Below, in pieces: positions 6,900 to 62,965 of a stretch of DNA of 64,000 nt. Both the position numbers and the translations under genes were made by a program. The notes beneath the pieces are model-generated. The model saw nothing but the letters and a program-made list of their open reading frames with translations. It did no database searches and was not told the origin of the DNA. The stretch's first letter is position 1. Each line of letters starts with the position of its first letter. The stretch spans positions 558,001 through 622,000 of the forward strand of contig NZ_CP061038.1 of the NCBI RefSeq assembly GCF_014490665.1, in the 5' to 3' direction. Origin of the DNA: Sphingomonas alpina. Its GTDB lineage: Bacteria > Pseudomonadota > Alphaproteobacteria > Sphingomonadales > Sphingomonadaceae.

Positions 6900-7076
6900 G
6901 TGTTTTGCGACCGCTGTTCGGCAGGAACAGCGGTCAGCTCACCCCTGTTCCTGCGCTTCCCACCGCTGTTATGGATAACAGCGGTGGAGGTATTCAAGGC
7001 ATTGAAAAAAGAAGAAAATCAGCGACCCAGATCCAACTTAACAGGGGTGACCTTTTTTCGAAGGAACAGCGGTAAA
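6900..7076 (+). repeat. CTGTT/AACAG multi-hairpin element, copy 1 (prefix ACCG/ACCC)
   Basis: This element has three nested perfect inverted repeats. Hairpin 1 pairs GACCGCTGTTC (6909-6919) with 6925-6935. Hairpin 2 pairs CCACCGCTGTTAT (6960-6972) with 6975-6987. A long-range pair joins TCACCCCTGTT (6939-6949) with AACAGGGGTGA (7040-7050). Between them lies an A-rich stretch (6996-7020). The shared box ATCCAACTTAACAG is at 7031-7044, a T6 run at 7053-7058, and a last GAACAGCGGT at 7064-7073. Twenty bases (7031-7050) recur exactly in copy 5, as do the 16 bases 6904-6919. There is no open frame of note. It lies between two forward genes. Whether it acts as RNA or DNA is unknown. Confidence 0.85.
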
Positions 7077-7236
7077 TCCGGCCCGATGATGACCGCGACT
7101 CGCATGGCTGCGGTCATCGGCCAATCGGCGCGGCAGGCAGGTCACAAGGCGCGCTTGTCGATCATTCCGCTCGTTTGATTTGACGCACCGCGCCGGAGCG
7201 CCATGAAGAGTGCGTCGATCGAGGGGGAGCCGCGGC

Positions 7237-7854
7237 ATGTCCAATCTGATTCTTCACGAATATGCCCGGTCGGGAAATTGCTACAAGATCCGCCTCACCG
7301 CCGCCTGTCTCGGCCTTCCGGTCGAGCGGCGCGAATATGACATCATGGCGGGAGCAACGCGGACCCCGTCCTTTCTCGATACGGTCAACGCCAATGGACG
7401 AATCCCGGTGCTCCAGGTCGGCGACCGGTTTCTGCCGGAAAGCGGGGCGGCGTGTCTGTATCTCGCCGACGGGTCGGCGCTGCTCCCGGCGGACCGGTTC
7501 GACCGCGCCGACATGATGCGCTGGATGTTCTGGGAACAATATAATCACGAACCCAATGTCGCGACGTTGCGCTTCTGGCGCCTGTTCATCGGCGACGATC
7601 GTCTGAACGATCTGCAACGCGCGCAGCTTCCCGCCAAACAGGTGGCGGGCGAAGCCGCGCTCGCGTTGATGGACGAGCATCTGAGCACGCGCGACTATTT
7701 TGTCGGTGACCGGCCGACGCTCGCCGACATTGCGCTCTACGCTTATACTCATGTCGCGAATGAAGGTGGTTTCGATCTTTCGCTCTACCCGTCTGTACAA
7801 AAGTGGCTCGGGCAAGTTGCAGCAATGCCGGGGCATGTAACATTGGACGCTTGA
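7237..7854 (+). CDS. Glutathione S-transferase family protein
   Basis: A 205-residue protein with an N-terminal thioredoxin-like domain (about 1-78; LHEYARSGNCYKIRLTAACLG, with the NGRIPVLQ cis-proline and ESGAACLYLA glutathione-binding motifs) and a C-terminal all-helical domain (about 88-200, with DRPTLADIALYAYTH). GSTs conjugate glutathione to electrophiles or act as peroxidases in the cytosol. The start at 7237 is chosen over upstream in-frame codons because GAGGGGGAG lies 8-16 bases before it. The substrate is unknown. Repeat element copy 1 lies upstream. Confidence 0.9.
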   Translation: MSNLILHEYARSGNCYKIRLTAACLGLPVERREYDIMAGATRTPSFLDTVNANGRIPVLQVGDRFLPESGAACLYLADGSALLPADRFDRADMMRWMFWEQYNHEPNVATLRFWRLFIGDDRLNDLQRAQLPAKQVAGEAALALMDEHLSTRDYFVGDRPTLADIALYAYTHVANEGGFDLSLYPSVQKWLGQVAAMPGHVTLDA

Positions 7855-7944
7855 ACTGACACGGAACTGTCACGCGTCACGATTCTAAATGTAACACGAT
7901 GTCGTCATAGCCGCTGCAATGGGAAACCTTAGCGGGGCGAGGCC

Positions 7945-8847
7945 ATGAACGTCATCAGCAAGCTTATGAGCGACGGCAATATTACCGACCTGACGGACTT
8001 CGCCAATTCCCATCCGGCGATTCCGGAACGGATCGTGGAGGGACGGCGGCAATATCGGACGATCTGGATTTCCGACGTGCATCTCGGGACGCGCGGCTGC
8101 AACGCGACGATGCTGATCGACTTTCTCGATCATGTCGATAGCGAGACGATGTATCTGGTCGGCGACATCATCGACGGATGGCGGCTGAAGAAGAAATTCT
8201 ACTGGCCATCGGCCCATAACGATATTGTCTGGCGGCTGCTGAAACGCGCGAAGCGCGGCACGCGCGTGATCTATATCCCGGGTAATCATGACGAGGTGTT
8301 CCGGCAATTCTCCGGGCTCGATTTCGGCGGCGTGTCGATCCGCCGTCAGGCGATCCATGAAACCGCCGATGGCCGCCGTCTGCTCGTGCTGCACGGCGAT
8401 GAATTCGATGCGATTACTTTGACGCACCGCTGGCTGGCGCATGTCGGCGATGTCGCGTATGAATTCATGATGGCCCTGAACCGCTGGGTAAACGCGTATC
8501 GCCGCTTCTTCGACCTGCCCTATTGGTCGCTGTCGAAACACGCGAAGGCCAAGGTGAAGAACGCAGTCGAATTCATTTCGAACTACGAAGAAGTCGTGGC
8601 GCAGGCAGCGGGCAGCCGCGGCGTCAACGGTGTCGTCTGCGGCCATATCCATACTGCCGAGTTCCGCGACATCGGCGGCGTGGAATATTATAATGATGGC
8701 GACTGGGTGGAGGGATGCACGGCGCTGGTCGAACATTTCGACGGCCGCATGGAGCTGATCCACTGGGCCGACGAGATCGCCCGGCGCGAACTGCCCGATG
8801 ACGCACCAGGACAAGCCCGCGCGGGGATCGAGATGATGGCGGCCTGA
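7945..8847 (+). CDS. UDP-2,3-diacylglucosamine diphosphatase-family metallophosphatase (LpxH-like)
   Basis: A 300-residue calcineurin-type phosphoesterase. The metal-binding motifs are visible in order: SDVHLG (43-48), GDIIDG (73-78), GNHDE (113-117), HGDEFD (about 150-155) and GHIHTAE (about 225). LpxH hydrolyses UDP-2,3-diacylglucosamine in lipid A synthesis, but this longer version with an N-terminal extension of about 40 residues is usually paired with a glycosyltransferase, as here (five-base gap to the next gene). Because sphingomonads often carry glycosphingolipids in place of LPS, the true substrate may be another lipid-linked nucleotide or phosphate (inference). Confidence 0.82.
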   Translation: MNVISKLMSDGNITDLTDFANSHPAIPERIVEGRRQYRTIWISDVHLGTRGCNATMLIDFLDHVDSETMYLVGDIIDGWRLKKKFYWPSAHNDIVWRLLKRAKRGTRVIYIPGNHDEVFRQFSGLDFGGVSIRRQAIHETADGRRLLVLHGDEFDAITLTHRWLAHVGDVAYEFMMALNRWVNAYRRFFDLPYWSLSKHAKAKVKNAVEFISNYEEVVAQAAGSRGVNGVVCGHIHTAEFRDIGGVEYYNDGDWVEGCTALVEHFDGRMELIHWADEIARRELPDDAPGQARAGIEMMAA

Positions 8848-8852
8848 CCAAA

Positions 8853-9878
8853 GTGCGCATCGCGATCGCCACAGACGCGTGGACGCCCCAGGTCAACGGG
8901 GTCGTGCGGACCTTGCAGATGGTCCGTGCCGAACTCGAACGCCAGGGCCATGAGGTGCTGATCGTCTCGCCCGACCTGTTTTATTCGGTGCCTTGCCCGA
9001 CCTATCCGGAAATCCGCCTGGCCTTTGCCAGCACCTATACGGTCGGCAAGATGCTGGAGGATTTCGCACCGCATGCGATCCATCTTGCGACCGAGGGGCC
9101 GGTCTGCGTCGCCGCGCGGCGCTGGTGCCTCAGCCGCGAATTCCCCTTCACCACCGCCTATCACACGCAATTCCCCGATTATGTCGCGGCGCGGACCGGT
9201 GTGAATCCGGAATGGGTGTGGCGTTATATCCGCTGGTTCCATGCGCCGGCGCAATCGATCCTCGCCTCGACGCCGTCGATCGCCGAGACGCTGAAGGCGC
9301 ATGGCCTGACCCGCATCCGGCATTGGGGGCGTGGGGTCGATCTCTCGGTGTTCGGCGCCGATGCCGCACCCGACCCGGCGATCACGGTGCTGCCTGGGCC
9401 GATTCAGCTCTATGTCGGCCGCGTCGCGGTGGAAAAGAATATCGAGGCGTTCCTGCAGACCGGCCAGCCCGGCACCAAGGTGATCGTCGGCGACGGCCCC
9501 GCACGATCCGCGCTGGAAGCGAAATACCCGGATGCGAAATTCCTCGGCCCCCGCTTCGGTGCCGATCTTGCCGCCTGCTATGCTGCGGCCGATGTGTTCG
9601 TCTTTCCGAGCCGGACCGACACGTTCGGGCTGGTGATGATCGAGGCGCTGGCCTGCGGCGTGCCCGTCGCGGGCTATCCGGTGACCGGGCCGATCGACAT
9701 CTTGAACGACCGTGTCGGCGCGATGGACGAGAATCTCGACACGGCGATCGCGACTGCGCTGACCCGCGACCGTGCGGCCTGCATGGCCTATGGCCGGACC
9801 TTCACCTGGGAAGCGAGCGCGCGCCAGTTCCTCGGCGCGCTGGTACCCGCATTCGGCGATGAGGCAGCCGCGGCCTGA
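8853..9878 (+). CDS. Glycosyltransferase family 4 (GT-B fold)
   Basis: A 341-residue GT-B enzyme. The N-terminal acceptor domain starts RIAIATDAWTPQVNGVVRTL, typical of GT4 enzymes acting on lipids. The C-terminal donor domain contains LYVGRVAVEKNIEAFL and the EX7E-like segment FPSRTDTFGLVMIEALACGVPV. The start codon is GTG at 8853, five bases after the stop of the phosphatase, so the two are co-transcribed. The best analogues are mannosyl- or glucosyltransferases that glycosylate diacylglycerol or phosphatidylinositol-type lipids. The sugar and acceptor cannot be told from sequence. Confidence 0.88.
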   Translation: MRIAIATDAWTPQVNGVVRTLQMVRAELERQGHEVLIVSPDLFYSVPCPTYPEIRLAFASTYTVGKMLEDFAPHAIHLATEGPVCVAARRWCLSREFPFTTAYHTQFPDYVAARTGVNPEWVWRYIRWFHAPAQSILASTPSIAETLKAHGLTRIRHWGRGVDLSVFGADAAPDPAITVLPGPIQLYVGRVAVEKNIEAFLQTGQPGTKVIVGDGPARSALEAKYPDAKFLGPRFGADLAACYAAADVFVFPSRTDTFGLVMIEALACGVPVAGYPVTGPIDILNDRVGAMDENLDTAIATALTRDRAACMAYGRTFTWEASARQFLGALVPAFGDEAAAA

Positions 9879-9917
9879 GCCTCTTCCCGCTGGATCGCGG
9901 CAAAAGGCTCAGCCACA

Positions 9918-10295
9918 TCAGGGACGAAACCCGACTTCGATCAGGATCCGTCCCGGCGCGAAGCAGTAAAAGACCCAGCCGCCCCGCATCGCGCGTGGCG
10001 CATTCCAGATAGCGGCATCGGCCGCGACCAGCTGCGCGTAGAGCGCATCAACCTCACCGCGCGACGGCAGGATGAAGCCGATATGATAAGTCGCCACAGC
10101 GGTCGAGACCTGGTCCGCGCCGCCGAATTTGGCCACCGGCCGGCTGATGACGAGTTCGAGGCCGGCATCATCGTTGAGGATCGCCAGCCCATCGGCGCCG
10201 CGCATTTCGATTTCGGCAAGGCCGAAATGCTCGATCAGAAAATCGCGCGTCGCCGCGACATCGGGGACGTGAAGGTCGAGGTGATTCAGTCGCAT
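9918..10295 (-). CDS. VOC family (glyoxalase-like) protein
   Basis: A 125-residue vicinal-oxygen-chelate protein (MRLNHLDLHVPDVAATRDFL) with the beta-alpha-beta-beta-beta repeats of glyoxalase I/dioxygenase folds and a C-terminal CFAPGRILIEVGF strand. Metal-ligand candidates are the N-terminal His (residue 5 or 7) and the late Glu. The start at 10295 is preferred to the in-frame ATG at 10307 because GGAG lies seven bases upstream of it. The substrate is unknown. Confidence 0.8.
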   Translation of the reverse strand: MRLNHLDLHVPDVAATRDFLIEHFGLAEIEMRGADGLAILNDDAGLELVISRPVAKFGGADQVSTAVATYHIGFILPSRGEVDALYAQLVAADAAIWNAPRAMRGGWVFYCFAPGRILIEVGFRP

Positions 10296-10309
10296 TGTCA
10301 GCTCCATCA

Positions 10310-10470
10310 GGGTTCAACCCGCGCTGGAGCCAGTCGAAAAACGGCACGCCCAACGCGAGCCCCCGGCACATGCCGGGCTCGCGTCGTGGGTTCTCACGCA
10401 GGAGCGTGGAGCAGAGCTTCCGGATGGAAGGGGTCGGGCTTACCGTGATCCGACCCTGCCTTTTTCGACG
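10310..10470 (+). ncRNA. Candidate structured small RNA ending in an intrinsic terminator
   Basis: This stretch has no credible gene on either strand. It contains a very stable hairpin (ACGCGAGCCCCCGGCA at 10353-10368 with TGCCGGGCTCGCGT at 10371-10384, two-base bulge) inside weaker flanking pairing, and it ends with a terminator (10431-10465). That is what an independently transcribed forward RNA of about 150 nt would look like. I compared it loosely with 4.5S, 6S and tmRNA features and could not assign it. It could equally be a leader of trcR. Confidence 0.4.
10431..10465 (+). terminator. Intrinsic terminator upstream of trcR (first of two)
   Basis: GGGTCGG (10431-10437) pairs perfectly with CCGACCC (10450-10456), followed by TGCC and five T. 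It ends the structured region at 10310-10470. Confidence 0.65.
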
Positions 10471-10597
10471 CGCCATCGTACCGCCGCCGTGTCGCCGATG
10501 CAAATGGCCGAGCACCGCCGCATAGAGGGTCGGCGGGGCGTCGCACGCGCCGCCTTGCCACTCCGCGCCATCCGCAGTAAGTCGGGCGCCAGCACAT

Positions 10598-10630
10598 GGC
10601 CGCTCCGAAAGGGGCGGCCCTTTCTGTTTT
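10598..10630 (+). terminator. Intrinsic terminator immediately before trcR (second of two)
   Basis: GGCCGCTCC (10598-10606) pairs with GGGGCGGCC (10611-10619) around a GAAA tetraloop, with one G-T wobble, followed by CTTTCTGTTTTT. It ends only 14 bases before the trcR start codon and just before its AAGGAG ribosome site, so it could act as an attenuator or mark the end of an upstream RNA. Confidence 0.72.
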
Positions 10631-10644
10631 TAAGGAGTTTCCCC

Positions 10645-11325
10645 ATGGCTCAGCCGCTCATGCCGCATGCGACCGCGTCGTGGCTCGTCGACAATACCTC
10701 GCTCTCGTTCGAGCAGATCGCTGAATTCTGCGGCCTGCACATCCTCGAGATCCAGGCGATCGCCGATGATACCGCCGCGACCAAACTGACTGGCCGCGAC
10801 CCGGTTCGTGCGCACGAACTGACCCAGGAAGAAATCGACAAGGGCCAGGCCGATCCGGAATATTCGCTCAAGATCCTGAAAGGGCCGGAGCAGGTCCGCC
10901 GCACCAAGGGCCCGCGCTACACGCCGGTGTCGAAGCGTTCGGACAAGCCCGACGGCATCGCGTGGATCATCCGCAACCATCCGGAGATCACCGATGGCGC
11001 GATCGGCAATTTGATCGGTACGACCCGCACCACGATCGCGGCGATCCGCGATCGTAGCCACTGGAATATTGCCAATATCACCCCGAAGGATCCGGTCACC
11101 CTGGGCTTGACCACGCAGCGCGAACTCGACGCGGCGGTGGGCAAGGCGGCCAAGGCGGCGGGCCTTGAAGCGCCGGTCGATACGCGGCTCGAAGGCGACC
11201 GCGAGGCGCTGATCACCGAATTGCGCGCCCAGCGCGCGCAGGCCGTGCTCGACGCAGAAGCGGTGGAAGCCGGCGAAGCTCCTGCCTCGGCCGAGCCGAC
11301 CGCCGAGAACCTGTTCAAACGCTGA
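10645..11325 (+). CDS. trcR: Cell cycle transcriptional regulator TrcR (DUF1013)
   Basis: A 226-residue protein starting MAQPLMPHATASWLVDNTSL. It belongs to DUF1013, an alphaproteobacterial family with two helix-turn-helix-like segments (residues about 15-45, SFEQIAEFCGLHILEIQAIA; and about 118-150, TDGAIGNLIGTTRTTIAAIR), annotated as the cell-cycle regulator TrcR. The C-terminus is Ala/Glu-rich and ends FKR. AAGGAG at 10632-10637 fixes the start at 10645. It is preceded by two terminator hairpins in tandem, hinting that expression may be controlled by transcript termination (inference). Confidence 0.9.
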   Translation: MAQPLMPHATASWLVDNTSLSFEQIAEFCGLHILEIQAIADDTAATKLTGRDPVRAHELTQEEIDKGQADPEYSLKILKGPEQVRRTKGPRYTPVSKRSDKPDGIAWIIRNHPEITDGAIGNLIGTTRTTIAAIRDRSHWNIANITPKDPVTLGLTTQRELDAAVGKAAKAAGLEAPVDTRLEGDREALITELRAQRAQAVLDAEAVEAGEAPASAEPTAENLFKR

Positions 11326-11336
11326 TTCGTCGGCCG

Positions 11337-11364
11337 CCGCGCGCTGGTTGAGGCCAGTGCGCGG
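11337..11364. terminator. Hairpin between convergent trcR and MFS genes
   Basis: CCGCGCGCTGG (11337-11347) pairs with CCAGTGCGCGG (11354-11364) with one mismatch. It sits between two converging genes and probably serves as a bidirectional terminator, although no T-run follows. Confidence 0.5.
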
Positions 11365-11393
11365 TGCCCGGCTTCTCGTTCATCGACCCGCGG

Positions 11394-12923: not shown

Positions 12924-13031
12924 GGTTCGGCCTTTCGACGTCGGATGGGGCCAGAACGAGATAGTGCGCGCTTGATCATAACAGAATTGGATGATTATAT
13001 ATTTCAGAGACGACAGAAGTGGATAGATGCG
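12924..13031. promoter_or_regulatory. Divergent promoter region between MFS and LysR genes
   Basis: These 108 bases separate the divergent starts. They contain an A/T-rich segment (12975-13010, with GATCATAACAGAATTGGATG and ATTATATATTTC) that stands out from the GC-rich surroundings and is the likely site of both promoters and of LysR binding. No exact operator is assigned. Confidence 0.5.
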
Positions 13032-13889: not shown

Positions 13890-13961
13890 AGGCATCGGGG
13901 CCTGTCGGCGACCGGCACATAGTTGTTGGCACGCGCGTCATTCCGTTGCTACCCGCAACCT

Positions 13962-16731: not shown

Positions 16732-16744
16732 CCCTCGCGGTAAC

Positions 16745-24423: not shown

Positions 24424-24487
24424 GGCTGTGGCATGGCCGATGCAGGGGCAGGGGAGCAAGGGGCAAGCGACGCCCATCGGCTATTTC

Positions 24488-24686
24488 GTCGCATGGCTGA
24501 TACTGGCTGTTACTGGCTGTTCTATGCCGAAATGTTTTTTCCTGGCTGTTATTTCGCCGTTAGATCGAAAGAATATGGCTGATTTCATGTTGTTGCATCT
24601 CAACTGCGGGTTGCCGGAACAGCCAGCATATCAGCGACCGAACAGCCAGCTAACAGCCAGCGGAACAGCCAGGTATCAGCCAGCCA
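24488..24686 (-). repeat. CTGTT/AACAG multi-hairpin element, copy 2 (prefix CTGG)
   Basis: The nine-base word CTGGCTGTT occurs exactly at 24503-24511, 24513-24521 and 24542-24550, and its complement AACAGCCAG at 24618-24626, 24641-24649, 24652-24660 and 24664-24672. Degenerate edges reading GGCTGATA (24495-24502) and TATCAGCC mirror each other outside. A T6 run is at 24535-24540. Read leftward, the segment AACAGCCAGGAAAAAACATT corresponds to AACAGCATGGAAAAAATTC of copy 4, so this copy is inverted relative to copies 1, 4 and 5. It lies between two reverse-strand genes. No coding sense. Confidence 0.85.
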
Positions 24687-24886
24687 ATAGGGGGCAATCC
24701 GTCCGGCGGGCGGAGCCGCTGCCGGACCTTGTGAAATATTCGCGATGAGAAATAGCCGGGGCCAGTCCGAAGATAGCCCAGGACTGACCCTGCTTCAGCG
24801 GGAGTCGATGTTGAATCGTCGCCCCGGCTGGAGAGGCCTCATGCCGATTCTGGCGGAGTGCGGGCGGGCGGCGATACTCGTTTCTC
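24687..24886. other. Remainder of the gap between element copy 2 and the flavoprotein gene
   Basis: About 200 bases between the repeat element and the end of the flavoprotein gene at 24887. I see nothing that I would call a gene, a terminator or a repeat. Confidence 0.4.
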
Positions 24887-25780
24887 TCATGCCCGTACCA
24901 GGGACTGATGGGCCGCAACGCCCGCGAGCACGCCCGATGCCGAAGCGATCGTCGCATTGTGCATCGGCGTGGTGGCGTCGCCCGCCGCATAGACGCCGGG
25001 TACCGAGGTCAGCCCCCATGGATCGACCTTCACGAACGGACCGGTCGGGCCTTCCTCCATGGCGCAGCCCAAATTTCCGGCAATGGGGCTCGACGGGCGG
25101 GTCCTGGGTGCGGTGAAGATAGCGGAAAGTTTGATGATCCGGCCATCCGCAAGCCTGACCCCGTCCAGCGCCGGCGCGTTGCCGATCAGTTCGATCACGG
25201 GCGATCGCTCGATCGTGACTCCCCGCGCGGCAAGAAGCGCGAGCTCGGCGGGGTCGGGCTCATAAGCGCCTTGGGTGAAATAGCGCGTCGTGCCCCAGTC
25301 GGGAAGCAAGGCGGCCTGATGGGCCGACATCGCATGATTGGCGATGACGCCCAGGGCGCGGTCGCGCACTTCATAGCCATGGCAATAGGGGCAATGCAGT
25401 ACGGTCTCGCCCCACCGTTCCGACATGCCGGGAATGGCCGGGAGTTCGTCCGACACTCCGGTCGCCAGCACCAGCCGGCGCGTCTTTCGCTCGACGCCGG
25501 TGGACAATGTCACGACGAAATGGTCGTCGGCCCGGACCGCGCTCCGCGCCTCCGCCGCCACTATTTCGACCGTGGGATAGGCCAGCAGCTGGCAGGTCGC
25601 CTCCCGCATGATGGCATGGGGCGCTCGTCCGTCCTGGCCCAGAAAGCCATGCGCTGCTTCGGCGAACCGGTTCCTCGGCATTCCCGCATCGATCATCACT
25701 ATATTCTGTCGCGCGCGGGCGAGCTGCATGGCCGCGGACTGACCTGCGAAACTCCCGCCGATAACGACAACATCATGCAT
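24887..25780 (-). CDS. Thioredoxin-reductase-like NAD(P)/FAD-dependent oxidoreductase
   Basis: A 297-residue flavoprotein. The FAD dinucleotide-binding loop is at the N-terminus (VVVIGGSFAGQSAAMQLARA, residues 4-23), with a C130-P-Y-C133 redox-type pair in HCPYCHGYEVRD and the terminal FAD motif GVYAAGDATTPMHNATIASA. It matches the short pyridine-nucleotide-disulfide family related to thioredoxin reductase; the NADPH-binding glycine motif (around residue 145, ALGVIANHAMSAHQ) is degenerate. Two direct repeats at 25819-25873 lie just upstream and could be operators. The electron acceptor is unknown. Confidence 0.85.
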   Translation of the reverse strand: MHDVVVIGGSFAGQSAAMQLARARQNIVMIDAGMPRNRFAEAAHGFLGQDGRAPHAIMREATCQLLAYPTVEIVAAEARSAVRADDHFVVTLSTGVERKTRRLVLATGVSDELPAIPGMSERWGETVLHCPYCHGYEVRDRALGVIANHAMSAHQAALLPDWGTTRYFTQGAYEPDPAELALLAARGVTIERSPVIELIGNAPALDGVRLADGRIIKLSAIFTAPRTRPSSPIAGNLGCAMEEGPTGPFVKVDPWGLTSVPGVYAAGDATTPMHNATIASASGVLAGVAAHQSLVRA

Positions 25781-25818
25781 GGCTCGACCTCATTGTTCGC
25801 CTTTCAGATACGACACAT

Positions 25819-25873
25819 ATGATGTTACATAATCACCTGCGGCGATTTTGCAACTAATGAAGTTACATGATTA
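25819..25873. promoter_or_regulatory. Tandem direct-repeat operator candidate upstream of the flavoprotein gene
   Basis: ATGATGTTACATAATCA (25819-25835) and ATGAAGTTACATGATTA (25857-25873) match at 14 of 17 positions and are spaced 38 bp apart, close to four helical turns less a little. Each contains the partly palindromic ATG-N-N-GTTACAT. They lie 38-93 bp before the reverse-strand ATG at 25780. This is a typical arrangement for a redox-type or HxlR/Rrf2-type repressor, but no regulator gene is adjacent. Confidence 0.6.
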
Positions 25874-25947
25874 GGCAGCGCGACGCTGAGCCGCCGAGAC
25901 GCAAGGGCGGGCAGGCGTCTTGCCGGGTCGCTTGCGGACCCGGCGCT

Positions 25948-26823
25948 TTACGAAGCGGGGGTTCCGGAAGCGTCGGTCATCGCGCGCAGCGCGATCATTG
26001 CCTCGGCCTCGGCGAGGTGCAGTCGTTCCACCATCCGGCCATCGACCCGCAGTGCGCCCTTGTCGGCATTTTCGGGCAGCGCGAACGCCGCCACCACGGC
26101 CTGCGCCGCGGCAAGCTCCGCATCGCTCGGCGTGAACACCCGGTTGCAGGTCCCGATCTGCTTCGGATGGATCAGCGTCTTGCCGTCGAACCCGAACGCC
26201 CGCCCTTGCCGGCACTGCGCCTCAAGTCCCGCGTCATCGTCGATCGCGTTGAACACGCCATCGAGAATGGTGAGCCCATATGCCCGCGCCGCCGCCACCG
26301 ATTGCGCCAGGAAGCCGAGGAACGGCACCCGTTCCACATCCAGCGTGGCGCGCATTTCCTTGGCGAGATCATTGGTGCCCATCACCCAGCCGCTCAGCCG
26401 CGTCGTGCGCGCCTGCGCGGCGATCTCCTCCAGTCGGAACATCGCGCGGGCGGTCTCGATCATCGCCCAGAGCCCGGTATGCGCGGGCGCCGCGGCGATC
26501 AGCGCGTCATAGGCGGCGACTTCGGCGGCGTCGTTGACCTTGGGCACCAAAATCGCGTCCGGCCCGGCAATTGCCAGCGCCGCCAGGTCGTCGCGCCCCC
26601 AGGGCGTGTCCAGCCCATTGGCGCGGACGATCAGCTCGCGACGGCCGAACCCGCCCTCCCTGACCACCGCAAGAGCGGTTTCCCGCGCCGCCGCCTTGGC
26701 CTCGGGCGCGACCGCATCCTCCAGGTCGAGCACCACCGCATCGCACGGCAGGTCGCGCGCCTTCTCGATCGCGCGAAGGTTTGACGCGGGCATGTACAGC
26801 AGGCTGCGGCGGGGGCGTGTCAT
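25948..26823 (-). CDS. HpcH/HpaI aldolase / citrate lyase beta-like protein (CoA ester lyase)
   Basis: A 291-residue TIM-barrel lyase of the CitE family. It shows RPRRSLLYMPASNLRAIEKA, then VVLDLEDAVAPEAK with the acidic metal ligands (about residue 35), the KVNDAAEV strand, MIETARAMF with the metal-binding Glu (about residue 122), and the GFDGKTLIHPKQI motif near residue 212. Stand-alone CitE-like proteins cleave malyl-, citramalyl- or methylmalyl-CoA using Mg2+. No citrate lyase alpha or gamma subunit is nearby, so a role in a CoA-thioester side pathway is more likely than citrate fermentation. Confidence 0.87.
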   Translation of the reverse strand: MTRPRRSLLYMPASNLRAIEKARDLPCDAVVLDLEDAVAPEAKAAARETALAVVREGGFGRRELIVRANGLDTPWGRDDLAALAIAGPDAILVPKVNDAAEVAAYDALIAAAPAHTGLWAMIETARAMFRLEEIAAQARTTRLSGWVMGTNDLAKEMRATLDVERVPFLGFLAQSVAAARAYGLTILDGVFNAIDDDAGLEAQCRQGRAFGFDGKTLIHPKQIGTCNRVFTPSDAELAAAQAVVAAFALPENADKGALRVDGRMVERLHLAEAEAMIALRAMTDASGTPAS

Positions 26824-29124: not shown

Positions 29125-29345
29125 CGTCACACTCTCCCGCGCTGATCGATATGCCGGAACGGCGCAGGCGAACAGGTCAATCCTCGGGCAAGCAAGCGGG
29201 AAAATCGATACCTCGCCCTTTCGCGCAGCCGATTCAACGCCGCCGCCAATCATGAAAATGTGCGCGTGACGGACCGTCGCGGCGGCCCGGCACGCTCTTT
29301 CTCAGGATGAATATCGCAACAGCTCGTCGGAGTTCGCAAAGAGGC
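29125..29345. other. Gap between the phospholipase C start and element copy 3
   Basis: About 220 bases upstream of the phospholipase gene. This presumably carries its promoter, but I cannot point to convincing -35/-10 or regulatory sites, and there is no gene. Confidence 0.4.
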
Positions 29346-29348
29346 GCG

Positions 29349-29556
29349 GGTATCTCCCTGCAACTCCCTGTTATCATGCGCACCGCTCCCTGTTCCGCGC
29401 GCCCGATCTCCCTGTTATTCGATAACAGGGAGATGGAGGAATAATTGATTGAAATAGAAGGAAAATATCTCCAGAAAATCGCCCGAAAGCGGCCAAAAAA
29501 ATTGCCGCTCCCTGTTATTCTCCCTGTTATGCGCGAGATAACAGGGAGCGGCGTCG
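29349..29556. repeat. CTGTT/AACAG multi-hairpin element, copy 3 (prefix CTCC)
   Basis: CTCCCTGTT occurs five times (29364-29372, 29386-29394, 29408-29416, 29508-29516, 29520-29528) and its complement AACAGGGAG twice (29424-29432, 29540-29548). Two perfect hairpins: ATCTCCCTGTTAT (29406-29418) with 29422-29434, and CCGCTCCCTGTTAT (29505-29518) with 29538-29551. Between them is a purine-rich A/T-rich interior (29438-29490) containing ATTGAAATAGAAGG, and an A7 run at 29495-29501. The shared ATCCAACTTAACAG box is absent in this copy. It lies between two reverse-strand genes. Confidence 0.85.
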
Positions 29557-37322: not shown

Positions 37323-37460
37323 CCGCCGCTTCTGCTCCCTGTGGGCCCACCTGCCAAGCCGCCGGCGATTCAACTCAGCTGTTTATGATGCCAGCATCAT
37401 TTCCACGGGGCAGACATCCCCGGCCGGCTCTTTCTCATCATGAAATCAACCTCCGGGCGC
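37323..37460. other. Gap before element copy 4
   Basis: About 140 bases between the hydrolase start (37322, reverse strand) and element copy 4. It presumably contains the hydrolase promoter. No gene or clear site is seen. Confidence 0.4.
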
Positions 37461-37638
37461 CTGCTGTTCCGTTGCGAACAGCAGCAGCCCGCATGCTGTT
37501 AATTGCTGTTTTCATGCTGTTATTGAATAACAGCATTGGCGGCCATTATCGCATTGAGATTACGGGAAGAAATCTCGCCGAAAATCCAACTTAACAGCAT
37601 GGAAAAAATTCACGGCGAAAACAGCATGAAACAGCAGG
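37461..37638 (+). repeat. CTGTT/AACAG multi-hairpin element, copy 4 (prefix CATG/CTG)
   Basis: Hairpin 1 pairs CTGCTGTTC (37461-37469) with GAACAGCAG (37476-37484). A long-range pair joins CATGCTGTTAA (37492-37502) with TTAACAGCATG (37591-37601). Hairpin 2 pairs ATGCTGTTATT (37514-37524) with AATAACAGCAT (37526-37536). An A/T-rich interior (37540-37582) containing GCATTGAGATT is followed by the shared box ATCCAACTTAACAG (37584-37597), an A6 run (37603-37608) and terminal AACAGCATG/AACAGCAG words (37620-37637). The order of parts is the same as in copy 1, although nearly all paired bases differ. It lies between two reverse-strand genes. Confidence 0.85.
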
Positions 37639-56793: not shown

Positions 56794-57332
56794 TGCCCGC
56801 GCTCCATCAAATGGCCGAGCCGGGCATAGAGATGCGCGACAGCATGAGTCAGATGCTTCTGCACCATGCGTGAACTGATGCCCAGTTCGCGCGCAATCTC
56901 GCTTGTGCTGCGTTCGTCGAAGCGACGCATCACGAATACTGCGCGGCATCGCGAGCCCAACTCGTCGAGTGCCGCCTCCAGCGCAGCCTGCAGATCGGCG
57001 ACACGCCGCCCATCCTCCTGCGCAGGCCGGACCGGCATGTCATGTTCGTCGAGCAGCGGCGCGGTCGAGATCGTGCGCCGGTGGCGGTCGGCGATCAGAT
57101 TGGCGGCGATGCGGAAGAGATAGGCCTGTGGCTCGTCAAGCGTCTGCGTGCGTGCCCGGGCGATCAGCCGCGCGCATGCTTCCTGCACCAGGTCCTCGAC
57201 TTCGGCGGGATTGGCGACGCGGCGGGCGACGAACGCGCGAAGCGCCGCGCGATAGGCATCGAAGCCTTCGCCCGTCGCTAGGCCTGCGTCGCTATTTGCC
57301 GCTCTGCGCAACTCTTTGTGTCCCCCATCCAC
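56790..57332 (-). CDS. ECF RNA polymerase sigma factor (FecI type)
   Basis: A 180-residue sigma factor. Region 2 reads VEDLVQEACARLIARA then LFRIAANLIADRHRR (about residues 44-85), and region 4 reads LGSRCRAVFVMRRFDERSTS then EIARELGISSRMVQKHLTHA (about 125-165). The start is GTG 57332. With the adjacent FecR and the STN-domain receptor at 57492 it forms a cell-surface signalling set; it is expected to transcribe the receptor operon. A palindrome lies in the divergent promoter gap. Confidence 0.92.
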   Translation of the reverse strand: MDGGHKELRRAANSDAGLATGEGFDAYRAALRAFVARRVANPAEVEDLVQEACARLIARARTQTLDEPQAYLFRIAANLIADRHRRTISTAPLLDEHDMPVRPAQEDGRRVADLQAALEAALDELGSRCRAVFVMRRFDERSTSEIARELGISSRMVQKHLTHAVAHLYARLGHLMERGQ

Positions 57333-57371
57333 GCCCGGTACTCATTGCCATGACGCGCCGCAGGGGCAAAG

Positions 57372-57419
57372 GCGAACCAGATTCGGGCCGGCGATAAAAA
57401 AATTACAGCCCTGGTTCGC
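57372..57419. promoter_or_regulatory. Inverted repeat in the divergent FecI/receptor promoter region
   Basis: GCGAACCAG (57372-57380) and CTGGTTCGC (57411-57419) form a perfect 9-bp inverted repeat separated by 30 bases that include an A7 run. Lying between the FecI gene and the TonB receptor, it may be a Fur-independent operator or part of the sigma-dependent promoter. No canonical Fur box is evident. Confidence 0.5.
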
Positions 57420-57491
57420 ATTGATCCATTTTGGCGTCATTGAAATATCGGCTCTGGGGAGGGCCGGGCAACGAGTGAAGGGGGCCCGCCG

Positions 57492-60400
57492 ATGAACACA
57501 CGCCATCTGTTATTCGCCACGACCGCAATCATGATCGCCATGCCGGCCACCGCGCAGGCCGCTGCGGATGTGCGCCACAGCATCGACTTGCCGGCCGGAT
57601 CGCTCGACACGGCCTTGTTCCAGGTCGCACGCCAGACCGGCATGCAGCTAGTCTTCACCGACCCGGGTATCGCCGGAATCCGCGTCGCGCGCGTGTCCGG
57701 TTCTTATACCGCGCGCCAGCTGCTCGACACATTGCTGTCGAAGACGGGCTATACCTATCGCTTCACCGGCGCGCGCAGCGTCCGGGTGATTGCGCTGGCC
57801 AAGGCCGGGGCGAAGGTCCGGCCGGCTGCGCTCACGCAATCCGCACCCCAGGCCACCGACGGCCAGGCCGGTTCCGACACATCCAGCACCACCCAGGCCG
57901 AGAATGCCGTGGATGGCAATGATCAGCAGGAGCAGGGCGACATCGTCGTCGTCGGCACCCAGATCAAGGGCAGCAAGGTCACCGAGGCGCTGCCTGTCAC
58001 GGTGGTCGATGAGCAGCAGATTCGCGCCACTGGCGCCGTTTCGGGTGATGAGCTGTTCCGTTCGATCCCGCAAATGGGCGATGTCAGCTTCAATTCGAGC
58101 TATCTGCCCAACAGCTCCAACTCGGCGCGCGGCGATGTCGGTTCGGTCAATCTGCGCAATCTGGGTGTCGGCAATACGCTGACTCTGCTCAACGGTCGCC
58201 GCGTCGTCGCTCATCCAACCAGCCGCGCCGACGACAATCTCGTTCCGGTGCAGACCTACAACACCAACGCGATCCCGGTGTTCGGGCTCGAGCGGCTCGA
58301 GGTGTTGCGTGACGGCGCGGCAGCGATTTACGGTTCCGACGCCGTTGCCGGCGTGGTCAACACCGTACTCAAGACCAATTTCACCGGTGTCCAGATCGAG
58401 GGACAGACCGGATGGGCGGAGGGCACCAATCTCGCCGAGAGCAATCTCAACTTGTTGGCGGGGAAGAATCTCGGCGACCGTGGCAACATAACCTTGTTCG
58501 CAAGCTATGATCGCCGAACCTCGCTTGGTGCACGCGATCAGGACTATACCGCTTCGGCCAATCTCAACCCGCTATTCGCCGATACCCGCTTTTCCACCGC
58601 GACCGACGGACGTAGCACGATCACGCCCTGGGGCTCGTTCCAGACCTTGGGCAATGTCGTCGTCAGGCAGGGCGCCACCAATCTGACCAACGCATCGGGC
58701 CAGTTCCACGTCCAGCCGCTGACCAATGCCGGCTGTGCCACGAACACGACGACTGGCCTGCCTGGCGGCATTTGCATCGACGACGGCGCCAATAGCGCGG
58801 CGGGCGATCGCAACCTTGGCTTCGATGCGCCTCATGCCTTCAACACCAGCGTGATACCGTCATTGAAGCGCGCGAATTTTTTCCTGACCGGCCATTATGA
58901 ACTGACCGACGGTCTCGAATTTTTCGGTGAGGCCGGATATTACACGGCGAAGACACGCAGCGTGCAGGCCTCGACCGGCACGCTGAGTTCGGGGCCGCTG
59001 GTGATCCCCGCGTCGAATTACTGGAATCCGTTTGGCCCGGTGACCTTCGCCAATGGCCAGGCCAATCCCAACCGCCTGCCTGGCATCAACGCGCCAGCCG
59101 GCGGGCTGCCGGTTATCCTCAGCAGCTATAATTTCGCCGATGTCGGACCCAACATCGTCGATGTGAAGAACACGCAATATCGCCTGCTCGGCGGGCTGCG
59201 CTGGAATTTTCTTGGCTTTCAATGGGAAAGCGCAGCGCTCTATTCGCAGGCACGCGTCCGCGACACCTCCGATGGTATCAGCCAGACAGCGCTGCAGCGC
59301 CAGCTCGCTCTGTCGACCCCCGATGCCTATAACCCGTTCAACGGCGGCAACCTGCTCGACCTGAGCGGCGCCGATGCAACGCCGAGCAGCCGCGCGGCGA
59401 TCGATGCAATTCGGGTCAAGACGCAGCGCGTCAGTACCTCGACGCTGGCGATGATCGACCTGAAAGGGTCCAATGCCTCCTTGTTCAGCTTGCCTGGCGG
59501 CGATGTCGGCCTGGCGATCGGCGGCGAAGTTCGCCGTGAAACACAGCGCGACGATCGCGATCCGCGTCTCGACGGGACAATCACGTTCAAGGATGCGGTG
59601 AACGGCGTCGTGAACGGCTCCGATCTGATCGGCACCAGCCCCTCGCCCGATACCAGCGGGCGCCGTACCGTGGCCGCCGCTTATGTCGAACTCGCGGTGC
59701 CGGTGGTCAGCCCGGAGATGAATATCCCGCTGGTCCGCAAGCTCGAACTGCAGATCGCTGGCCGGTTCGAACATTATGACGATGTCGGCAGCGTGGCGAA
59801 GCCAAAGATCGCCGGCGCCTGGGATGTGTTCCGTGGCCTGCGGCTGCGCGGTTCTTATGCTCAGGGCTTCAAGGCGCCGAACCTTGAACAGATCAACGCG
59901 ACCGTGGTCACGCGGTCCAACACGCGAACCGATTGGCTCCGTTGCGAGGCGCTGTTGAAAAGCGGGACGATCACGAGTTTCACCGATGCCCGCTGCGCCA
60001 CGTCCCAACGCTTCGCGACCTCCGCGCAGCGTTCGGGCAATCCCGATCTGAAGCCCGAAACGTCGAACACCTGGTCGGCGGGCATCGTCCTGCAACCCTA
60101 TTTTCTCGACAGCGCGATCGGCAAGATCACCTTCACGGCCGATTATTGGCACGTGAACCAGAAGGGCATTGTCGGCCTGTTCGGGGAGGGCAATGCGTTG
60201 ATCAACGATTATCTGTTGCGTGCGAAAGGCAGTTCGGATCCCAACGTCATCCGCGCCACGCCGACCGCCGACGATATCGCCTTGTTCGCGGGATCGGGCC
60301 TTGCACCTGCGGGCCGCGTGCTCTTCGTCAAGGATCAATACGTCAATCTGCTGCCGCAGGAAGCGGCCGGCTTTGATCTTGGTCTGACCTGGCGGCTGCC

Positions 60401-60893
60401 GGATTTCGGCATCGGCCGGTTCAACTTCACCGCCAATGCCGCGCATCTCAGCAAATTCTTCCTCAAGCCGTCGCCCAATATCCAGACCTTGATCGATGCG
60501 CGGGCGGCGGGGACGATCAATGCTGGCACGACGATCAGCGGCGGCGGTGACCTGGTCCGCCAGAATGGCAAGCCGCGCTGGAAGGTTACCGGCACCGCGA
60601 CATGGAGCTACAAGCAGTTCGAACTCGGCGGCTATACGCAATATACCAGTGACGTGGATGAAACCGCGTTGGTCGATTCCGCCGGCATTCCGTGGCTGAT
60701 TGAGGATCAGATGACCTTCAACGCCTATGCCCAGGTCTCGGTCGGCACCGAGCGCGAGGGCAATTACCGGCTCCGGTTCGGCGTCAGGAACCTGACCAAC
60801 GAAAAGCCGCCTTTGTCCTCGAACGGCTATCTCGGTTCGATGTACAATCCTTATGGGCGTTACTGGTACGCCAGCGTGCGGGCGTCATTCTGA
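57492..60893 (+). CDS. TonB-dependent outer-membrane receptor with N-terminal signalling (STN) domain
   Basis: A 1133-residue receptor. A signal peptide (about 1-24) is followed by the STN/secretin-N domain (about 32-100; LPAGSLDTALFQVARQTGMQ, then TARQLLDTLLSKTGYTYRFT). After a Gln/Ser/Asp-rich linker comes the plug (QGDIVVVGTQIKGSKVTEAL, then GVGNTLTLLNGRRVVAHPTS) and a 22-strand barrel ending YWYASVRASF. The STN domain shows it signals to the adjacent FecR. The unusual partners downstream (gamma-glutamyltransferase, M20 amidohydrolase) suggest a peptide-like ligand rather than a simple siderophore (inference). Confidence 0.92.
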   Translation: MNTRHLLFATTAIMIAMPATAQAAADVRHSIDLPAGSLDTALFQVARQTGMQLVFTDPGIAGIRVARVSGSYTARQLLDTLLSKTGYTYRFTGARSVRVIALAKAGAKVRPAALTQSAPQATDGQAGSDTSSTTQAENAVDGNDQQEQGDIVVVGTQIKGSKVTEALPVTVVDEQQIRATGAVSGDELFRSIPQMGDVSFNSSYLPNSSNSARGDVGSVNLRNLGVGNTLTLLNGRRVVAHPTSRADDNLVPVQTYNTNAIPVFGLERLEVLRDGAAAIYGSDAVAGVVNTVLKTNFTGVQIEGQTGWAEGTNLAESNLNLLAGKNLGDRGNITLFASYDRRTSLGARDQDYTASANLNPLFADTRFSTATDGRSTITPWGSFQTLGNVVVRQGATNLTNASGQFHVQPLTNAGCATNTTTGLPGGICIDDGANSAAGDRNLGFDAPHAFNTSVIPSLKRANFFLTGHYELTDGLEFFGEAGYYTAKTRSVQASTGTLSSGPLVIPASNYWNPFGPVTFANGQANPNRLPGINAPAGGLPVILSSYNFADVGPNIVDVKNTQYRLLGGLRWNFLGFQWESAALYSQARVRDTSDGISQTALQRQLALSTPDAYNPFNGGNLLDLSGADATPSSRAAIDAIRVKTQRVSTSTLAMIDLKGSNASLFSLPGGDVGLAIGGEVRRETQRDDRDPRLDGTITFKDAVNGVVNGSDLIGTSPSPDTSGRRTVAAAYVELAVPVVSPEMNIPLVRKLELQIAGRFEHYDDVGSVAKPKIAGAWDVFRGLRLRGSYAQGFKAPNLEQINATVVTRSNTRTDWLRCEALLKSGTITSFTDARCATSQRFATSAQRSGNPDLKPETSNTWSAGIVLQPYFLDSAIGKITFTADYWHVNQKGIVGLFGEGNALINDYLLRAKGSSDPNVIRATPTADDIALFAGSGLAPAGRVLFVKDQYVNLLPQEAAGFDLGLTWRLPDFGIGRFNFTANAAHLSKFFLKPSPNIQTLIDARAAGTINAGTTISGGGDLVRQNGKPRWKVTGTATWSYKQFELGGYTQYTSDVDETALVDSAGIPWLIEDQMTFNAYAQVSVGTEREGNYRLRFGVRNLTNEKPPLSSNGYLGSMYNPYGRYWYASVRASF

Positions 60894-62644
60894 TGTCTCG
60901 CATCGGTCGCGTCATGGCATTCGCCGCCCTGCTTTCGCTGGCCGGTACACCGGTCATGGCGTCGGCGCAGGAAGATCCCGCGGCGCCGCGCGCTACGACC
61001 GGCGGCGACATCGTCGCCTATGACCAGATCCATAAACCGGCGATCGGCCGGGGCGGTATGGTGGTGAGCCAGAACGCGGTCGCCGCGCGGGTTGGCGCCG
61101 ATATCCTGCGCAAGGGCGGCAATGCGGTCGACGCGGCGGTCGCGGTCGGCTTTGCGCTGGCGGTGGTGTTGCCGCGCGCGGGCAATATCGGCGGCGGCGG
61201 CTATATGCTGGTGCACATGCCGGCCAAGGGCGGAAAGCCGGCGGTTGACCTGGCGATCGACTATTACGGCCAGGCCTCGCGCAACACGACGCCCGACCTG
61301 CTGCTCGGTGCCAATGGCAAGTTCGATCCGGCCAAGGGCTATTCGATGAAGGGCGTCGCCATTCCGGGTACCGTCGCCGGGTTATGGGAAGCGCATCGGC
61401 GCTTCGGCAGCTTGCCCTGGGGAACGCTGGTCGCGCCGGCGATCGCCATGGCGGCCAAGGGCGTCGCGCTGAGCGATGACGAGGCGCAGGCCAATGCCGA
61501 CCAGAAAAAGGCGATGGCCGACGATCCCGCCGCGCTGGCGGTCTATTTCAAGCCGGACGGCAGCGCCTATGCGCCGGGAGAGACATGGCGCCAGCCCGAC
61601 CTGGCGAATACGCTCAAGACGATCGCCGCCAAGGGGCGTGATGGCTTTTATGCCGGACCGCTCGCGGCGAAACTTGCCGCCGGGATCAAGGCCGGCAGCG
61701 GCGTGATCGACGCCAGGGATCTCGCCGACTATCGCCCGATCGTCTCGGCGCCGATCTGGTCGAGCTATCGCGGTCGCAAGGTCGCCTATATGCCGCCGAC
61801 CGCCTCCGGGGTGAGCGTTGCCGAGGCGATGAACATCCTCGAGACTTTCCCGGTGCGCGAAGGAAAATGGGGCAGCACCGCCAACCTCCATCTGCTCGCC
61901 GAGACGCTGAAGATCGTATCGTCCGACCGCCGCCTGATCGGTGGCGGGCCCGACTGGCGGACGCCGACCTCGGGGCTGGCGAGCAAGGCCTATGCGGCCG
62001 AGCGCGCAAAGCTGATTCGCACCGACCGCTCGCTTGGCCGCACCGATGTGCCGGAGGGCAATCCCTATCCGTTCGAAAGCAAGGACACGACGCATTTCTC
62101 GATCGTCGATGCGCAGGGCGGGGCGGTCAGCAATACCTACACATTGTCGGCATCCTATGGCGCGCATGTCGTGGCGCCGGGCACCGGCATCCTGCTCAAC
62201 AATTCGCTCGGCAATCTTGCCTGGGGGCGCGGGACCGATGGCCAGCGTCGCGCGACCCTGCCGGTAGCGGGCAAGCGTGTCGGTTCAACGATCACGCCGA
62301 TCATCGTCTTCCAGGACGACAAGCCATGGCTGGTCACCGGCACGCCGGGCGGCGGCTATATCATCGCGACGATGGTGCAGATGCTGTCCAATGTGATGGA
62401 CTTCGATCTCAACGTGGCCGAGGCGGCTGAGCGTCCGCGCATCAACCAGGGCGATGCCGATGCGCCGCTTGAACTCGAACAGGGCTTCTCGCCTGATCTG
62501 GTCGGGTTGCTTGAGGCGAAGGGGCACAAGGTGCGCATGTCGAATACGATGGGCAGCGTGCAATCGATCATGGTCGACGGCGACCGCTTTCTCGGGTCGG
62601 CCGACACACGTCGCCCCGATGCGCTGGCGGTGGGGGTTCGCTGA
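60893..62644 (+). CDS. ggt: Gamma-glutamyltransferase / glutathione hydrolase
   Basis: A 583-residue Ntn-hydrolase with a signal peptide (MSRIGRVMAFAALLSLAGTP). The self-processing nucleophile is Thr399 in KDTTHFSIVDAQGGAVSNTY, and the substrate-loop glycines GGGYIIATM are present downstream. It cleaves gamma-glutamyl bonds in the periplasm and splits on maturation into large and small subunits. Its ATG shares a base with the receptor stop (TGATG), so it is co-translated with the TonB receptor, suggesting that the receptor brings in a gamma-glutamyl compound. Confidence 0.93.
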   Translation: MSRIGRVMAFAALLSLAGTPVMASAQEDPAAPRATTGGDIVAYDQIHKPAIGRGGMVVSQNAVAARVGADILRKGGNAVDAAVAVGFALAVVLPRAGNIGGGGYMLVHMPAKGGKPAVDLAIDYYGQASRNTTPDLLLGANGKFDPAKGYSMKGVAIPGTVAGLWEAHRRFGSLPWGTLVAPAIAMAAKGVALSDDEAQANADQKKAMADDPAALAVYFKPDGSAYAPGETWRQPDLANTLKTIAAKGRDGFYAGPLAAKLAAGIKAGSGVIDARDLADYRPIVSAPIWSSYRGRKVAYMPPTASGVSVAEAMNILETFPVREGKWGSTANLHLLAETLKIVSSDRRLIGGGPDWRTPTSGLASKAYAAERAKLIRTDRSLGRTDVPEGNPYPFESKDTTHFSIVDAQGGAVSNTYTLSASYGAHVVAPGTGILLNNSLGNLAWGRGTDGQRRATLPVAGKRVGSTITPIIVFQDDKPWLVTGTPGGGYIIATMVQMLSNVMDFDLNVAEAAERPRINQGDADAPLELEQGFSPDLVGLLEAKGHKVRMSNTMGSVQSIMVDGDRFLGSADTRRPDALAVGVR

Positions 62645-62797
62645 CACCGATGTGCACTGGTTGTGGTGTTTTGGTTCTGTTGCCCGGCATCCGCTCGGCC
62701 GTCGATTCAGTCGTTGCGCGATGTACGGCATGGTGGTGCCGGACGTGCGCATTGCCGGGCATCTTGCACCACTCGTTGCCGTGCTGAATATCGTTCC
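62645..62797. other. Gap between ggt and element copy 5
   Basis: About 150 bases downstream of ggt. No clear terminator hairpin with a T-run, gene or repeat is visible. Confidence 0.4.
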
Positions 62798-62799
62798 AG

Positions 62800-62965
62800 T
62801 TTGCGACCGCTGTTCTGGCAATAACAGGGGTCGGGTCACCGCTGTTACCTGCTGTTTCCATAACAGCGGTGAGGAAAAGTAAGATGCTGAATATAAACAG
62901 GAATCAATAACCCGAAATCCAACTTAACAGGGGTGATGTTTTTTTGAAAATAGCAGCGGTCAGCA
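62800..62965 (+). repeat. CTGTT/AACAG multi-hairpin element, copy 5 (prefix ACCG/ACCC)
   Basis: It starts with the same 16 bases as copy 1 (62800-62815). Hairpin 1 pairs GACCGCTGTTC (62805-62815) with TAACAGGGGTC (62822-62832), imperfect. Hairpin 2 pairs TCACCGCTGTTA (62836-62847) with 62861-62872 perfectly. An A/T-rich interior (62873-62912) precedes the shared box ATCCAACTTAACAG (62917-62930), AACAGGGGTGA (62926-62936), a T7 run (62939-62945) and a decayed AGCAGCGGTC (62952-62961). The order is that of copies 1 and 4. It lies between two forward genes and may separate ggt from the amidohydrolase transcript. Confidence 0.85.

Follow-up and report, generated by a model that had tools for sequence, protein, structure and literature searches.

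A modular family of dispersed repeats in Sphingomonas, with hairpin cassettes that were probably copied and exchanged as blocks

Main finding

We analysed a stretch of 64,000 nucleotides from the genome of Sphingomonas alpina (NCBI RefSeq assembly GCF_014490665.1, contig NZ_CP061038.1, positions 558,001 to 622,000; hereafter the window), in which five intergenic segments carry arrays of the word CTGTT and its complement AACAG. These segments are probably copies of a modular, non-autonomous dispersed repeat family that occurs in a group of Sphingomonas genomes, with arrays (cassettes) likely to have been copied and exchanged as whole blocks, which would explain why all arms of a copy agree with one another. 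What appears to be new here is a bacterial interspersed repeat in which word lineages coexist and whole blocks seem to be exchanged at shared sites. Genomes elsewhere are known to hold several repeat families, yet the many lineages here are built to one plan, and what sets them apart is a short self-complementary word; they occur side by side, stack behind a single 5' module, and take each other's place at orthologous sites. Turnover among small bacterial repeats thereby becomes directly observable, with the word as a handle for tracing the lineage of a copy, and the family poses the question of which enzyme moves a hairpin array whose sequence may vary while its arms pair.

Element structure, copy number and host range

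An element consists, in order, of a 5' module, an array of CTGTT/AACAG words, an ATCCAAC box, and a run of A or T, and measures approximately 280-370 bp from GATTCA to 70 nt past the box. The 5' module comprises GATTCAA, a spacer of 50-68 nt, and the boxA-like 12-mer GCTCTTTSWCAT. In a search that permitted spacers of 50-70 nt, the distance from GATTCAA to GCTCTTT (which is followed by SWCAT) was 55-62 nt in 142 of 154 modules, and the 42 nt 5' of boxA fold better than shuffled sequences in 110 of the 154, a weak signal. When copies are aligned on the box, the array reads as prefixed CTGTT words, then an inner hairpin of the form CTGTT-loop-AACAG, an interior whose core resembles TTGAAAA, the box (the end of which is the complement of the word), the run, and complementary words. 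A first-pass annotation of the window had reported words, hairpins and A/T runs in all five segments, together with a box common to copies 1, 4 and 5 and an A/T-rich, purine-biased interior. All of these features are present, the interior having a GC content of 0.456 (compared with 0.646 for the window) and a purine content of 0.583 in the 64 of 79 box elements that were measured.

The box ATCCAACTTAACAG, allowing at most one mismatch, occurs 80 times in the genome of 5,197,460 bp and not once in the reversed control, and none of the genes predicted with our own codon model contains the midpoint of any of these 80 hits. Elements begin with GATTCAA at the 5' end; at the 3' end, CGACTC lies no farther than 80 nt from the last word in 14 of 36 ACC copies and in 1 of 43 other copies, and the 3' end GATAGAATC is present at locus L042.

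The annotation had proposed a family of five copies, but 114 arrays are recovered from this genome by a covariance model of the array, which comprises 36 sequences and 128 positions. The model also recovers 68 in Sphingomonas sp. ERG5, 30 in Sphingomonas sp. QA11, 22 in G043, 19 in the metagenome-assembled genome RYN_525 and 9 in G033, with none in four other Sphingomonas genomes tested. The search of sphingomonad genomes with such a model, which the annotation had suggested as a check, recovered the family in 9 of 295 Sphingomonas genomes, this one included, and one of the nine is a single weak match (searches scored at most 150 candidates per genome, with stricter filters in scans of more than 40 genomes). 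Matches to the 5'-module pattern number 88 here, 24 in G033 and 4 in G043, and none of the other 117 relatives searched has any; 18 of the 24 G033 modules have no word array and 6 have one. Pattern matches fall in 85 genome-contig stretches, the best 80 of which comprise 33 from ERG5, 9 from QA11, 1 from RYN_525, 3 from bin-596 (its sequence identical to that of G043), 1 from Sphingomonas sp. AR_OL41, and 33 from scattered organisms. These last 33 were set aside, and there was no word array in the two that were inspected (L206, L243) or in AR_OL41 (L249). Matches L085-L087, in another family, also have no word array and were set aside. Five viral contigs (L270-L274) match the 5'-module pattern, possibly by chance.

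Word subfamilies

Among the 79 box elements used in the subfamily and word analyses (one of two antiparallel box hits at L042 having been dropped), the word carries the prefix ACC[C/G] in 36, CTGG in 16, GCCC in 14 and CATG in 13, and two further types, CTCC and GCTC, occur among copies without an exact box. This genome therefore holds six word types, and relatives at least two more, CAC in ERG5 and TTTCC types in QA11 as well as in G190, a genome similar to it. The same words occur in different species.

The word had been taken to be specific to its locus, whereas our comparisons identify the prefix as a trait of the subfamily: word identity is 0.378 within an element and 0.369 between elements of one subfamily, as against 0.008 for pairs from different subfamilies. 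Moreover, since slot-preserving shuffles inside the four subfamilies reach the observed within-element agreement (in 108, 313, 97 and 442 of 500 shuffles), no homogenisation is seen at the level of the single locus.

Given that subfamilies are named by their words, other segments were tested for subfamily signal. The post-box segment, which runs from the fifth base past AACAG to the next AACAG, has its nearest neighbour in the same word subfamily in 74 of 75 cases (shuffled mean 22.2, maximum 35); the corresponding counts are 45 of 64 for the interior, 42 of 69 for the spacer that follows boxA, and 51 of 79 for the tail. For the 5' module the count is 43 of 69, with the modules of CTGG (11/16) and CATG (7/10) elements mostly nearest to those of ACC. 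These comparisons suggest that the array is a unit, and that the 5' module is partly independent of it. The run differs between subfamilies as well, being of A in CTGG, CATG and GCCC arrays and of T in the ACC subfamily, where it is reached directly by the 3' arm.

Composite loci and array length

Composite loci, in which one 5' module is followed by two arrays with different words, provide the most direct evidence for the word as a cassette property. Seven such loci occur in ERG5 (in the order CATG-CAC four times and CAC-CATG three times) and one here (L131, CTCC-ACC), and in them each array mostly keeps its own word; at L334 the contig ends before GATTCAA, and the boxA-like part alone is visible. 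The 52 ERG5 arrays retained for comparison occupy 45 array sites; none of the 76 box loci here is composite, each holding a single array on the element strand. A comparison of ERG5 locus L187 with its orthologue L051 is instructive, as the 5' module and the first CATG array are inherited and an extra CAC array stands behind them in ERG5.

Slippage seems to act on array length, as tandem 11-bp units are found in 12 copies of AGCTGGCTGTT at L134 and in six near-identical copies at L335.

Orthologous sites

For comparisons between genomes we used 110 of the 114 arrays found here (one weak reverse-strand match, at L335, was dropped among 35 own matches) and 52 of 75 ERG5 model matches, having removed 15 duplicates in overlapping loci and 8 matches below 33 bits. 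The annotation had proposed comparing orthologous intergenic regions to see whether the prefix changes, and it does so between species: 18 of the 52 ERG5 arrays match on both flanks, at 17 of our sites, and 12 of these 18 pairs differ in word while 6 agree. Counted by site, the word differs at 11 of 17 and agrees at 6, the twelfth differing pair being a second array at an agreeing site. A further 9 ERG5 arrays have one matching flank only (5 with a different word, 4 with the same), and 25 have no match of 200 bits. G033 provides three two-sided pairs, two with a different word and one with the same.

The 5' modules of these pairs were ranked against the 101 modules of this genome (the pairs of L321 and L207 have no recognisable module, and the second array of L187 was left unscored). 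In same-word pairs, the module of the positional counterpart ranks 1, 5, 1, 1, 1 and 18, and in different-word pairs 8, 71, 1, 6, 84, 5, 68, 24, 1, 82, 1 and 53. The mean rank of the latter is 33.7, which random ranks reach in 379 of 20,000 simulations.

Two sites stand out. Locus L043 carries CTGG words here and mostly CATG words in both ERG5 (L220) and G033 (L166), with flanks that are 90-92% identical, and nearly all of its words are unlike those of its orthologues; its 5' module nonetheless ranks first of 101 with both ERG5 (z 4.2) and G033 (z 2.9), whereas its interior ranks 58 and 24 of 80, compared with ranks of 1, 4 and 5 in three same-word pairs. Similarly, L065 has CATG words here and CAC words in ERG5, and its 5' module ranks first (z 2.8). 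At these two loci, one array seems to have given way to another as a block, while the inherited 5' module in front of it was kept.

Genomic position and secondary structure

Box hits with both neighbouring genes called by our codon model number 78 (L042 is present on both strands and counted twice), of which 38 lie in convergent, 34 in co-directional and 6 in divergent gaps. That all copies lie between co-directional genes, as first reported, holds for the five copies of the window and not for the family. By comparison, the window has 29 gaps that hold no element and measure at least 60 bp, of which 6 are convergent, 12 co-directional and 11 divergent (Fisher P = 0.014 for convergent and 0.0004 for divergent gaps); for all 52 gaps of the window the numbers are 10, 31 and 11 respectively (P = 0.0008 and 0.034). 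A larger null of 145 gaps, with 16 convergent, 73 co-directional and 56 divergent, suffers from a bias, as no gap adjoining a convergent gap can itself be convergent, and was drawn with a stricter gene-score cut-off than the element count; the gaps of the window alone were therefore used. Such a distribution would fit insertions being tolerated at the ends of genes better than it would fit regulation.

When folded as single-stranded DNA, four of six segments have z-scores below -4 and the others have -1.8 and -2.8; among the elements of the window (element 2 was left out) the values are -4.5 for element 1, -5.3 for element 3, -5.0 for element 4 and -1.8 for element 5.

A model of cassette exchange

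Under the reading that we favour, cassettes of several lineages would be copied around the genome, and would replace or stack on one another. New copies would be made by an enzyme acting in trans, since no predicted gene covers an element, and hairpins folded in single-stranded DNA may be the form that is recognised. Exchange might involve recombination or conversion among copies at different places in the genome, or else re-insertion that is targeted, while tandem slippage would lengthen arrays, and the 3' ends of genes could be favoured on account of insertion being tolerated there. A word need only pair within its cassette, and so could drift and be refounded, a new lineage then spreading a new word to every copy. 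Our best guess is that the element is mainly selfish.

Several observations weigh against this interpretation. The subfamilies were first named by their words. The inner hairpin covaries when counted in cells (52 double-change cells, a value reached by none of 500 shuffles), but the covariation largely amounts to differences between subfamilies and represents few independent events, given that the number of pairs with double changes (4) is reached by 457 of 500 shuffles; the 11 pair types are reached by 188. Exchange is read from end states and was not observed as it happened. Beyond the two loci described above, three word-switched pairs are weak, with 5'-module ranks of 5-8 and z-scores of 1.5-1.9, and in six of the 12 scored word-switched pairs the 5' module is not recognisably orthologous, ranking 24-84 of 101. 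With modules that are weak or unrecognisable, independent insertion at the same site, replacement of the whole element, or divergence could explain most word-switched pairs. Additionally, searches for genes of the REP-associated tyrosine transposase (RAYT; REP, repetitive extragenic palindrome) or PF01797 type identified no mobilising enzyme, and the one empty site that we compared (element 1 versus ERG5) shows no target-site duplication, although its edges are not sharp.

Alternative explanations

A bolder version of the exchange model gives the two parts of the element distinct roles. The GATTCAA-boxA module would be a dock that stays resident through speciation, at which a host or mobile enzyme inserts, stacks and replaces cassettes, and the four-base word, complementary between the arms of a cassette and fixed per subfamily, would be an address that keeps lineages apart. 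We regard this version as unlikely, if conceivable.

The elements may instead be regulatory RNAs, with the boxA-like site bound by NusB/S10 and the arrays promoting termination or antitermination. The 12-mer GCTCTTTSWCAT occurs 98 times in the genome, with one match in the reversed control, and resembles the boxA consensus GYTCTTTAANA given in the accessible text of PMC5725501: the form GCTCTTTSWCA matches it at positions 1-7 and the last, and not fully at positions 8-9, the consensus being a gammaproteobacterial one. The 3' arm of the ACC subfamily, furthermore, leads into a T-run, and given these two features a role in transcription is possible. However, CTGG, CATG and GCCC arrays have an A-run in its place, elements are of mixed orientation relative to their neighbours and avoid divergent gaps, and there is no Rfam match. 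No 16S gene was found in the genome, so the likeness to boxA is not set against the species' own rRNA leader. We consider a regulatory RNA distinctly improbable.

A third possibility is that the family belongs with REP elements and their bacterial interspersed mosaic elements (REP/BIMEs) mobilised by a RAYT. PF01797 genes are present in all six element-bearing genomes examined (that of this genome being degenerate and below the cut-off) and in none of four genomes without elements, and the elements are rich in hairpins and rare in divergent gaps. Against this, among the matches listed, the PF01797 genes carry other terminal repeats, such as AATTACGGTGACAG... or AATTCGGGGACAC..., several being flanked by an inverted repeat with AATTACGGTGACAG, and in none does the GATTCAA module or the box adjoin the gene, although at L277 (G043) CTGTT/AACAG lies inside an otherwise different end. 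A RAYT was not adopted as the mover on these grounds. According to the part of PMC3733652 available to us, REP units measure 20-40 bp, as compared with approximately 280-370 bp for these elements, and bear a GTAG or CGTC tetranucleotide at one end of the palindrome. In the 12 nt that flank the inner hairpin on each side, 0 of 68 copies carry GTAG and 2 of 68 carry CGTC, and before all CTGTT words the two occur in 1 and 14 of 317 cases respectively. Tag and length exclude membership of the REP/BIME class, and we judge the explanation as a whole very unlikely. As a side observation, the PF01797 loci L276-L287 (G033, G043, G120, G121, G122) and L107 of this genome are mostly RAYT-like. Of the individual matches, the marginal one to PF01797 beside an element (L077/L107) is a degenerate fragment, and the best match in QA11 (L275/L287) looks IS200-like and is split over two frames.

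Arrays of CTGTT half-sites in helical phase could alternatively bind a host protein of nucleoid or segregation type. The spacings of CTGTT words are quantised, 130 of 238 consecutive spacings being 10-13 bp, 70 being 20-23 bp and 38 being 30-35 bp, with none between. Yet such phasing would also arise from a tandem repeat of 10-12 bp that has decayed, and slippage is sufficient to account for it because tandem 11-bp runs exist (L134, L335); the prefix varies freely between subfamilies, and 286 of 295 congeners have no match. A binding array therefore seems highly improbable.

Lastly, the first-pass annotation was right that the arms of a copy change together and that hairpin compensation is insufficient to explain it, but the cause it offered, concerted evolution of each locus (by slippage, conversion or hairpin-templated copying) or a dedicated factor per locus, is scarcely credible and is not needed: although words agree within an element, tandem expansions exist (12 units at L134, 6 at L335) and nearly all words differ from those of the orthologues at L043, the idea is largely refuted by agreement within elements that equals agreement between elements of one subfamily and by composite loci that hold two arrays with different words, and at L043 the interior changed too.

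Comparison with known repeat families

The nearest analogue in architecture is the BOX element of pneumococcus (boxA-boxB(n)-boxC), which the available portion of PMC3049150 describes as a modular interspersed repeat. It is present 125 times in one genome, has outer modules that enclose middle units in varying number, is predicted to be strongly structured and has a narrow phylogenetic range, all points of likeness to the present family. BOX differs in having described terminal inverted repeats and target duplications (PMC3049150, same portion). The comparison is of architecture alone, and the coexisting subfamilies with different self-complementary words, replacing each other at orthologous sites, set the present family apart.

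Miniature inverted-repeat transposable elements (MITEs) are short, non-coding, dispersed, and polymorphic between species. The present family is likewise short, non-coding, dispersed (114 copies) and polymorphic between species, but no cognate transposase or target duplication was found for it here and its terminal repeats are doubtful. Integron cassette arrays begin with a fixed 5' part, behind which hairpin-bearing units can be stacked and exchanged. The likeness lies in the fixed 5' part and the stackable hairpin units and is a comparison of how the two may work only; the cassettes described here contain no genes, and their units are the repeats themselves. Finally, REP/BIMEs and RAYT-associated repeats are similar in being high-copy palindromes outside genes, with several families per genome in some species (as far as the accessible parts of PMC3733652 and PMC12306157 describe them) and RAYT-like genes in the same genomes; the elements analysed here differ in having no GTAG/CGTC tag, in being several times longer, and in the other repeats at the ends of the RAYT-like genes among the matches listed.

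The family was not recognised in the first-pass annotation, and no earlier description of it was found among open-licence PMC papers; the accessible text of PMC8632094 mentions Sphingomonas once, in another context, and that of PMC10250234 has no match to the boxA letters. Rfam has no match at the gathering threshold in the window, elements 1 and 5 match nothing even with the limit relaxed to E = 1, and for four other copies it returned two chance-level matches, both outside the elements.

Interrupted and short copies

Some copies are interrupted by other sequence. At L037 an element is apparently split between 5' module and array by an unrelated repeat-like stretch, and at L193 (ERG5) the interior is interrupted by a tandem run of a short CGGCTTC-type unit. 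Arrays at L255 (ERG5) and L217/L146 (G043) are broken immediately after a CTGTT word by a shared sequence starting with GTTAGGTGACAG, which resembles another mobile element with the word as its insertion target. The GATTCAA-GCTCTTT module also exists as a short type that has no word array; this type accounts for the 18 array-less modules of G033 (L142-L179) and is also found in ERG5 (L202, L218, L248, L251) and here (L127). Some short-type modules occupy sites that hold full elements in our genome (L041, L065, L039, L130).

The five elements of the window

Each element of the window begins approximately 94-131 bp farther out than the edges first assigned to it, at GATTCA. Element 1, of the ACC[C/G] subfamily, spans 6806..7103 on the plus strand (model match 6952-7073, E = 1.1e-17), with GATTCAA at 6806, the boxA-like GCTCTTT at 6872-6878, the box ATCCAACTTAACAG at 7031-7044, a T-run, and the 3' end CGACTCGC at 7096-7103. 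The corresponding gap in ERG5 measures 20 bp, compared with 372 bp here, and so represents an empty site; the element is also absent from G033, whose gap holds other repeated sequence.

Element 3 (CTCC subfamily, plus strand, 29231..29556) has a partial model match at 29408-29480 (E = 1.5e-7), GATTCAA at 29231, GCTCTTT at 29294-29300, words of the form CTCCCTGTT/AACAGGGAG and an A-run, and is without an ATCCAAC box. Element 4, of the CATG subfamily, extends over 37367..37638 on the plus strand (model match 37502-37628, E = 2.8e-21), with GATTCAA at 37367, GCTCTTT at 37427, the box at 37584-37597, and an A-run; its ERG5 counterpart at the site carries the same CATG word, and the 5' module ranks first of 101. 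Element 5 (ACC subfamily, plus strand, 62704..62983, the 3' end approximate; model match 62838-62960, E = 1.3e-15) begins with GATTCAG at 62704, has no recognisable boxA-like site, and carries its box at 62917-62930 and a T-run.

The orientation and extent of element 2 required correction, as it lies on the minus strand at 24488..24817 (3' end approximate). It is a degenerate member of the CTGG subfamily, assigned by reading, with a weak model match (E = 0.0066); GATTCAA stands at 24817 and the boxA-like GCTATTT at 24756-24750, some of its words read CTGAT/ATCAG, an A-run is present, and the box is not recognisable. Elements 2 and 3 have no counterpart in ERG5. ERG5 and G033 lack, in the corresponding region, a stretch of approximately 1.5 kb (approximately 24466-25988) that includes element 2 together with a minus-strand gene (24887-25780) whose product is predicted to be an oxidoreductase of FAD/NAD(P) type, a name given by eye on the basis of the N-terminus.

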